64,000 nucleotides of DNA, taken from Aeromicrobium senzhongii. GTDB lineage: Bacteria; Actinomycetota; Actinomycetes; Propionibacteriales; Nocardioidaceae. The stretch is taken from positions 682,001 to 746,000 of the forward strand of contig NZ_CP060587.1 of assembly GCF_014334735.1 (NCBI RefSeq). The letters run 5' to 3'. A program made the translations under genes and the position numbers. The first letter of the stretch is position 1, and the number at the start of each line of letters is the position of its first letter. This document shows positions 44,889-47,081 of this stretch, in pieces. Under the pieces are notes generated by a model that worked only from the letters and a program-made list of their open reading frames with translations, was not told the DNA's origin and did not search any database.

Positions 44889-46034
44889 ATGACCTCGACC
44901 GCTCGCACGACCGACGTCGCCGCGCTCGCGCTCGAGTACGGCGACCGGGTCGTCCTGGGCACGGTCCGCGACGTCCACACGGCGGTCGCCCACCGCGTCT
45001 TCGGTGCCACCCGGATCGTCGGCAGCCGGGTGCCGGAGGCGATCCACGACGCGGTCGCGGGCACGGTCTACGGCTCCCTCTCGCGGGCACTGCGGGCCTC
45101 GGGCACCGCCGCCCGGTCGATGGCGGCGCACGGCGTGGGTGCCCCGGTGGATGGTTCGAGGGTCGGCCGCCAGGTCCGCTCCGCGGTCAACGGGCTGGTC
45201 GGCGACGAGCTGCGCCTCATGGGCGATCCCCAGGCGATCACGATGTCCCTGCGCCGCGACGGCACGGACATCGCCGCGACACCGTGGAAGCTGCGCCAGG
45301 CCTATCCCGACGCGACCGGCCACCTCGTCGTCCTCGTCCACGGCCTGTGCGAGAACGACGAGTCCTGGCTGCGCCGGGGACCGAGCGCCACCTACGCCGA
45401 GCGCATCGCGGCGGACACCGAGGCCACGACCGTCCTGCTGCGGTACAACACCGGCCTGGACGTCTCCGAGAACGGCCAGCACCTCGACGAACTGCTCGAG
45501 CAGGTCGTCGCCAACTGGCCGGTCGCGGTGCATCGCATCACGCTGGTCGGGCATTCGATGGGCGGACTGGTCGTCCGTGCGGCGACGAACCGGGCCACCG
45601 TGGCCGGGCACCTGTGGCCGCACCGGGTCGGTGACGTCGTCTGCCTCGGCACGCCGCACGCCGGTGCGAACCTGGAGAAGGCCGCGCACCTGGGGTCGCG
45701 CGTGCTGGGGTTCTGGCCCCGGTCCACGCCGTTCGGCACGATCCTGGACTCCCGCTCGGCAGGCATCGTCGACCTGCGCCACGGGTACATCTCGGCCGAC
45801 GAGTGGGAGGGCCAGGACCTCACGGCTCGCTGGGGTATGGACCGCATCGCGGCGGCGCCCCTGCCACATGCGGAGTACCACTTCGTGGCGGCCGGGCCCG
45901 TCGGGCCGGCCGCGCGGTCGGAGTACCTGCCGTCGGCGCACCACTTCGCGTTGCTGAACCATCCCCGGGTCGGCGACTGGCTGGTGGCCTGGATCAATGC
46001 CAAGCCGCGTCAGGTGCGCAGCCTCGGCTCCTGA
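44889..46034 (+). CDS. Alpha/beta hydrolase (PGAP1/lipase-like)
   Basis: A 381-residue hydrolase with no clear signal peptide. The N-terminal about 135 residues are helical, Ala/Val/Arg-rich, possibly a scaffold. The core has LVVLVHGLCENDESWLRRG (oxyanion HG), ITLVGHSMGGLVVRAATN (Ser elbow GHSMGG), VVCLGTPHAGANLEKAAHL and a closing SAHHFALLNHPRV with candidate catalytic His. The LGTPHAG motif is typical of PGAP1/LCAT-like esterases. The ATG lies 6 nt after a weak -10-like CACCAT. It follows the secreted lipase on the same strand. Confidence 0.82.
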   Translation: MTSTARTTDVAALALEYGDRVVLGTVRDVHTAVAHRVFGATRIVGSRVPEAIHDAVAGTVYGSLSRALRASGTAARSMAAHGVGAPVDGSRVGRQVRSAVNGLVGDELRLMGDPQAITMSLRRDGTDIAATPWKLRQAYPDATGHLVVLVHGLCENDESWLRRGPSATYAERIAADTEATTVLLRYNTGLDVSENGQHLDELLEQVVANWPVAVHRITLVGHSMGGLVVRAATNRATVAGHLWPHRVGDVVCLGTPHAGANLEKAAHLGSRVLGFWPRSTPFGTILDSRSAGIVDLRHGYISADEWEGQDLTARWGMDRIAAAPLPHAEYHFVAAGPVGPAARSEYLPSAHHFALLNHPRVGDWLVAWINAKPRQVRSLGS

Positions 46035-46128: not shown

Positions 46129-46611
46129 GTGGCGAACCGTGACGAGATCTCGGCGACGATCGACATCGAGGCGCCCCCGGAGCGGGTGTGGGAGCTGGTG
46201 AGCGACCCGGCGAAGATGCCCCGTTGGAGCCCGCAGTGCCGCAAGACGATCGTGCGTGGCAAGGGTCCTGTCGGCGTCGGCACGACCACGGTCAACATCA
46301 ACCGCCGCGGTCCGCTGTTCTGGCCCACGCGCTCGAAGGTCGTGGAGTTCGTGCCCGCGAAGCGCTTCGCCTTCTCGATCGCCGAGAACGGCACCGTGTG
46401 GTCCTACGACCTCGAGGCCACGGCGACGGGCACCCGCCTGACCGAGAGCCGTCACGCGCCCCACGGGGTCTCGGCCCTCTCGAACTTCCTCACCAGCCGC
46501 GTGCTCGGCGGCACGGACAACTTCGAGAGCGAGCTCGAGGACGGCATCCGCCAGACACTCGACCGGATCAAGGCCGCCGCCGAGGGCGGTGTCACGCCGG
46601 GAAAAGCCTGA
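46129..46611 (+). CDS. SRPBCC domain protein, zero-frame product of a possible frameshift pair
   Basis: A 160-residue START-like domain with the opener DEISATIDIEAPPERVWELV, then DPAKMPRWSPQCR, a central sheet including FWPTRSKVVEFVPAKRFAFS, and a C-terminal helix EDGIRQTLDRIKAAAE. It starts with GTG after AGGGAG. The 3' end contains GGGAAAA in slippery phase four codons before the end, then TGA, with a GC hairpin immediately downstream. The next reading frame encodes a second SRPBCC domain lacking a canonical start, so a -1 shift would extend this protein to about 317 residues. Ligand unknown. Confidence 0.85.
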   Translation: MANRDEISATIDIEAPPERVWELVSDPAKMPRWSPQCRKTIVRGKGPVGVGTTTVNINRRGPLFWPTRSKVVEFVPAKRFAFSIAENGTVWSYDLEATATGTRLTESRHAPHGVSALSNFLTSRVLGGTDNFESELEDGIRQTLDRIKAAAEGGVTPGKA

Positions 46612-46630
46612 GCGGCGGGGTCCCGCCGCT
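46599..46630 (+). other. Candidate -1 programmed ribosomal frameshift signal
   Basis: The slippery heptamer G_GGA_AAA (46599-46605) is in the exact zero-frame phase for simultaneous -1 slippage. Next come a 5-nt spacer GCCTG and a hairpin AGCGGCGG / CCGCCGCT (8 bp, loop GGTC; 46611-46630). The zero-frame stop TGA (46609-46611) lies between slip site and stem. The -1 frame then reads through about 158 codons of a second SRPBCC domain. Confidence 0.6.
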
Positions 46631-47081
46631 GGAGACCTCGACGTTCATCCCCGCTCCGGCCGAGCGGGTCTGGGAGGTCCTGCAGGACCAGCGACGGATG
46701 CGCCGCTGGAGTCCCGAGACGTGGGCCCAGCTCTTCCTGCCGCGTCGGCTGGCCCCCGGCCAGCTCTCGGTGAACCTCAACAAACGCAAGGCGTTCATCT
46801 GGCCGACGCTCAGCCGGTACGTCGCCGTCGAGCCGCCCGAGCTGCTGGCGTTCCGCGTCTACGGGCCGGGCGCCCGCTGGTCCTACCGGCTCGAGCCGCA
46901 GGACGGCGGCACCCGCCTGGTCCTGCGCCGCGATCTCCTCGGTGGCCGGCGCACCCTGATCAGCCGCGTCATCGCGACGCTGGCCCTCGGCGGGATCGAG
47001 GAGCACGACGACGAGCTGGTGGTCGGAATGGACCGGACCCTCGACGCGATCTCGGCCGACGTCACCGTGCGCGGTGCATGA
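46608..47081 (+). CDS. Second SRPBCC domain, likely read by frameshift (no canonical start)
   Basis: About 157 residues of SRPBCC fold: TSTFIPAPAERVWEVLQDQ, RRMRRWSPETWAQL, FIWPTLSRYVAVEPPELLAF and the C-terminal IEEHDDELVVGMDRTLDAIS. The order matches the first domain segment by segment, so the two are paralogues. No ATG, GTG or TTG occurs in frame between the upstream gene's end and the domain start. The first in-frame ATG (46698) would remove the first strand and helix. The given start is a CTG overlapping the TGA of the first gene; a -1 frameshift at 46599-46605 is the alternative I favour. Two separate domains in a heterodimer remain possible. Confidence 0.75.
   Translation: MSGGVPPLETSTFIPAPAERVWEVLQDQRRMRRWSPETWAQLFLPRRLAPGQLSVNLNKRKAFIWPTLSRYVAVEPPELLAFRVYGPGARWSYRLEPQDGGTRLVLRRDLLGGRRTLISRVIATLALGGIEEHDDELVVGMDRTLDAISADVTVRGA

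Follow-up and report, generated by a model that had tools for sequence, protein, structure and literature searches.

A conserved candidate -1 frameshift site between two SRPBCC domains in a clade of Aeromicrobium

Organization of the Locus

The stretch of DNA analyzed here (64 kb, hereafter the window) belongs to the genome of an Aeromicrobium species, which has 3.13 Mb and consists of a single contig. Its forward strand carries a pair of adjacent SRPBCC domains, located between a gene at 44889-46034, which we take from its sequence and general knowledge to encode an alpha/beta-hydrolase-like protein, and a group of genes that we presume on the same grounds to be clpP1-clpP2-clpX. The first gene of the pair, D1 (46129-46611), is an SRPBCC (Polyketide_cyc2) gene that starts with GTG behind a GGGAG ribosome-binding site and encodes 160 amino acids. 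The second domain, D2 (46605-47081), lies in the -1 frame relative to D1, reads AGC CTG AGC ... TGA, and possesses no canonical start codon before its first strand.

An initial sequence-only reading of this locus had proposed that the two domains are joined by a programmed -1 frameshift, and the elements that it described at the junction are indeed present. Because D1 ends with the codons CCG GGA AAA GCC TGA, the GGGAAAA that they contain falls in the slippery X_XXY_YYZ phase, i.e., G_GGA_AAA at 46599-46605. This proposed slip site is followed by a spacer of 5 nt (GCCTG, 46606-46610) and, at the border of spacer and stem, by the zero-frame TGA stop of D1 (46609-46611), which overlaps a CTG in the D2 frame (46608-46610; together CTGA), the sole near-cognate start candidate for D2. 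A GC-rich hairpin of 8 bp with one A-U pair can be drawn at 46611-46630, composed of AGCGGCGG (46611-46618), the 4-nt loop GGTC (46619-46622), and CCGCCGCT (46623-46630). The predicted products, 160 amino acids for D1 and 317 for the joined D1-D2, also agree with the sizes given in that reading.

Both domains match the Pfam profile Polyketide_cyc2 (PF10604) above its gathering cut-off of 27.4 bits (D1, 71.6 bits; D2, 45.8 bits) and they are 38% identical to each other. The closest solved chain to both is the uncharacterized Cgl2373 (PDB 2m47), one of the single-domain SRPBCC/Polyketide_cyc2 proteins of actinobacteria, a family in which Pfam places both domains. By analogy with this family, D1 and D2 likely bind a hydrophobic ligand, and the joined protein would probably be a two-domain binder of such a ligand. 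The NCBIfam model for the Rv0910-family toxin matches both domains only weakly (20-21 bits against a cut-off of 100), too low for that name to be used. In the six species discussed below, both domains are under purifying selection, with dN/dS values of 0.15-0.27 (about 0.17) for D1 and 0.26-0.35 (about 0.3) for the faster evolving D2.

Conservation of the Slip Heptamer

Six species of Aeromicrobium (G000, G005, G014, G045, G003, and G009, A. flavum), which together represent one clade only, have the common junction GGGAAAAG[C/T]CTGAGCGG, and in all of them the GGGAAAA and its phase are invariant. The comparison of orthologous loci that the sequence-only reading had suggested supports the slip site. 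Directly upstream of the junction block the codons vary and include a 3-nt indel. A single copy of the heptamer GGGAAAA lies in the window, the 3.13-Mb genome having 18 in total, and GGGAAAAGNCTGA is present in exactly one copy per genome in all six species, always at the D1-D2 junction. Five of the 18 heptamers lie within 10 kb of each other (G000:C1 202-213 kb; L091-L095), in stretches of 60-68% G+C, compared to about 71% around the site in the window, apparently a lower-GC island.

The conserved block of 17 nt is by itself unremarkable, since 12% of windows are conserved to that extent, and we therefore place the weight of the evidence on the rare codons GGA and AAA. As a codon-usage null we used 24 genes common to the six species (about 60 kb). 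In these genes AAA accounts for only 0.5% of the lysine codons (4 of 888, in 148 columns where all species have lysine), AAG being roughly 200-fold more common, and at each of the 148 columns AAA is present in at most two of the six species. GGA represents 6% of the glycine codons and is common to all six species in one of 593 columns. The D1-D2 junction has GGA as well as AAA in six out of six species, a conservation beyond the neutral expectation, albeit within one clade. As these two rare codons are retained while the residues upstream change and an indel has occurred, we read this pattern as selection on the nucleotides. However, conserved rare codons are also found in these genomes in regions where translation or transcription starts; nucleotide conservation alone is, therefore, no proof of a slip site, and selection on a start region of D2 must also be weighed.

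The Start of the Second Domain

In the window, the D2 frame holds no ATG, GTG, or TTG from 70 codons upstream of the CTG at 46608 to codon 31 of D2, which falls after the first conserved strand; the sequence-only reading had noted the lack of these codons before that strand. Across the six species, the first such codon of D2 appears only at codons 21-31, behind conserved residues. In four of them a stop closes the D2 frame five codons before the CTG, so that no upstream start can be used there; a long alternative start upstream in the -1 frame would be possible only in G000 and G005. The CTGA is conserved in six out of six species and its CTG is the only start-like codon at the junction. A single base change of GCC to GCG, GCA, or GCT, which is synonymous in D1, would provide D2 with GTG, ATG, or TTG, respectively, but none of the six species has made it. 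In A. flavum a C-to-T change before the CTG replaces the last residue of D1 (Ala to Val) but leaves the Ser of the -1 frame unchanged, a single observation.

An own leaderless promoter for D2 was also considered. TANNNT-like -10 elements are found about 7 nt before other start codons in the window (38176, 16564, and 34628 on the forward strand, 4148 on the reverse strand), where they are conserved in the compared species and lie within the preceding gene or just past its end, an arrangement that leaderless transcripts would call for. Such an element is lacking at D2 and this option was rejected.

Distribution of the Junction in the Genus

A D2-like match was obtained in all 49 genomes of the genus, and among the 40 genomes in which the junction was examined, 33 carry D1 and D2 in tandem. 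In 26 of these 33 the junction is an ordinary one (ATGA, TGATG, TGAcGTG, or a GTG or ATG within a few bases), and D2 starts with ATG or GTG in every one of them. Orthologues with a normal start for D2, which the sequence-only reading had listed as evidence against a frameshift, thus do exist in the wider genus but not in the clade with the slip site. The one other genome of the tandem set, the metagenome-assembled genome (MAG) G004, reads from D1 into D2 in one frame without a stop (L008; G004:C107:7022-7963). It is the sister of the six slip-site species (tree support 97%) and the only case of a stop-free join among 298 genomes of the family, the relatives of this pair otherwise being separate proteins. 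This MAG is labeled A. choanae and has a run of six Cs near the junction; the apparent fusion, which comes from this one assembly, deserves confirmation. A search of the GTDB r220 contigs for further orthologues returned only genomes that were already in the set.

Potential Stimulatory Elements

The sequence-only reading regarded the hairpin as the stimulator of the frameshift and suggested looking for compensatory changes in its stem. This part of the proposal was not supported. In most of the six species the hairpin belongs to the more stable fraction of 28-nt windows, but it is imperfect in several of them, and when the codons of its peptide were resampled synonymously its stability was not exceptional (P about 0.1-0.17 in four species and 0.55-0.65 in two). 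It is what the codons for SGGVPPLE tend to give. The 56-nt region as a whole folds no better than shuffled sequences (z -1.1), and the pair counts in the stem across the six species reveal no covariation beyond that of shuffles (342/500). Moreover, an identical hairpin is found in G032, whose D2 has a GTG start and needs no frameshift. A conserved stimulatory structure 5-9 nt downstream of the slip site is thus not supported by our data and we reject the hairpin in that role; it may aid shifting, though nothing shows that it is kept up for that purpose. Such structures are common in programmed -1 frameshifting, but shifting at a low level does not require one. No convincing Shine-Dalgarno stimulator was detected upstream; the matches present there (GGTG/AGTG) are weak, and their distance varies. 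Transcriptional slippage was rejected as well, because four As after three Gs form too short a run.

Discussion

The conserved slip site, the loss of a canonical start in six species, and the in-frame fusion in their sister lend support to a joined product, and we consider it probable that -1 frameshifting at G_GGA_AAA yields D1 (160 amino acids) together with some D1-D2 (317 amino acids). The slip site and the joined product of the original proposal are thus supported; its stimulatory hairpin is not. Ribosomes would translate D1 up to the slip site. A fraction of them, with the P site on GGA and the A site on AAA, would slip back by one base to GGG/AAA. These would then read AGC CTG AGC and onward, bypass the TGA, and complete D1-D2, while ribosomes that do not slip would terminate after one more codon and release D1. 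The description of the elements as textbook was overstated for the heptamer, as G_GGA_AAA is reported to be a modest shifter in E. coli, inefficient compared to X_XXA_AAG (PMC4066793). A low rate of frameshifting is therefore to be expected, unless another stimulator or the slow decoding of the rare AAA codon contributes. The slippage itself, its rate, the order of the evolutionary events, and the role of the joined protein are inferred.

The most serious alternative, which we regard as possible but unlikely, is that ribosomes stop at the TGA and restart at the overlapping CTG, assisted by a weak GGGA ribosome-binding site five bases upstream, and thus make a separate D2 of 157 amino acids. 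The ancestor of the clade would then have had ATGA or CTGATG, of which only the start codon decayed. Several observations fit: the CTG occupies the position at which D2 begins in congeners (CTGATG or ATGA), the N-terminus predicted from it is of normal length, the placement of GGGA resembles that of the GGGAG of D1, the duplex energy (about -4 kcal/mol) falls inside the spread of the congeners that start with ATG, and the CTGA is kept in all six species. In addition, a 'Polyketide cyclase' cluster of frame transitions was classed earlier as translational coupling (Antonov et al., 2013; PMC3711429, Table 2), which may or may not be related to D1/D2; it resembles D1/D2 in having two adjacent ORFs and a product named polyketide cyclase, but it concerns +1 transitions, 81% of which have a co-located start, whereas the D1/D2 junction is -1 and lacks a canonical start. 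In mycobacterial selections, however, CTG shows almost no activity as a start codon: in an unbiased selection of start codons with a Shine-Dalgarno sequence it made up 0.03% of the winners, compared to 20.5% for ATG, 22.2% for GTG, and 28.7% for TTG (PMC4633059). Nor has any of the six species replaced its CTG by GTG, ATG, or TTG, a change that is synonymous in D1. Furthermore, a ribosome-binding site offers no reason for AAA over AAG, the corresponding spacers at D1 and at clpX are variable, and none of the 17 other genomic copies of GGGAAAA precedes an ATG, GTG, or TTG by a spacing suited to ribosome binding (about 4-12 nt). The in-frame fusion in the sister, finally, is left unexplained by re-initiation.

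It is rather improbable that both routes operate, i.e., that frameshifting produces D1-D2 while low-level re-initiation at the CTG supplies some free D2, but the slip heptamer and the CTGA overlap do coexist and are each invariant in six species, and overlapping slip and start sites serve both routes in some insertion sequences (IS911). In reporters tested in E. coli, initiation at a low level from G-rich slip motifs has also been noted (PMC4066793). That D2 is no longer translated whole, the missing start being a lesion and the conservation of GGGAAAA incidental, is hardly credible: its higher dN/dS (about 0.3 versus 0.17 for D1) would agree with decay, but all six species retain an intact D2 under constraint, which extends to the residues that precede its first internal start codon, and the constraint on its first 30 codons largely refutes this explanation.

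The proposed frameshift resembles known bacterial -1 frameshifting on X_XXA_AAN (dnaX, copA, and IS3-family transposases) in its heptamer in exact phase and in the stop soon after the slip site, which gives a short zero-frame product and a longer one. It differs in that two paralogous domains of formerly separate genes are involved and that the heptamer is G_GGA_AAA, modest in E. coli, without a conserved stimulator. With termination-reinitiation coupling at ATGA/GTGA, as used by most congeners at this very place, the junction shares a stop that overlaps the start position of D2; here, however, it is a CTG that overlaps the stop, and upstream, in place of a variable spacer behind a GGAG site, stands a conserved slip heptamer that contains the rare AAA. 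Few chromosomal -1 frameshift genes of bacteria are known outside dnaX, copA, and mobile elements (PMC5009743 and general knowledge), and in the literature searched we found no description of frameshifting in SRPBCC proteins or in Aeromicrobium.

With regard to the origin of this arrangement, D1 and D2 would at first have been two genes linked by translational coupling, the stop of one overlapping the start of the other, a state that most congeners retain. D2 may then have lost its own start in the common ancestor of the six species and their sister and become an extension of D1, joined to it by frameshifting in the six species and by in-frame fusion in the sister. On balance we lean, with slight preference, toward the view that an ordinary coupled chromosomal pair became, in one clade of Aeromicrobium, a two-domain gene that depends on frameshifting and yields a set ratio of single to tandem product, and, in the sister, a true fusion. 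The series of coupled genes, slip-site clade, and fused sister is unusually clear, which makes the case directly testable.

If this interpretation is correct, the frameshift would set the ratio of single-domain to tandem SRPBCC proteins, and annotations of these genomes may miss the second protein or assign it a wrong start. An overlapping stop and start, which is a common arrangement, could then give rise either to frameshifting or to a fused gene, each of the three states being found in one genus, and start-stop overlap, frameshift, and fusion would form an evolutionary series caught in the act within Aeromicrobium.
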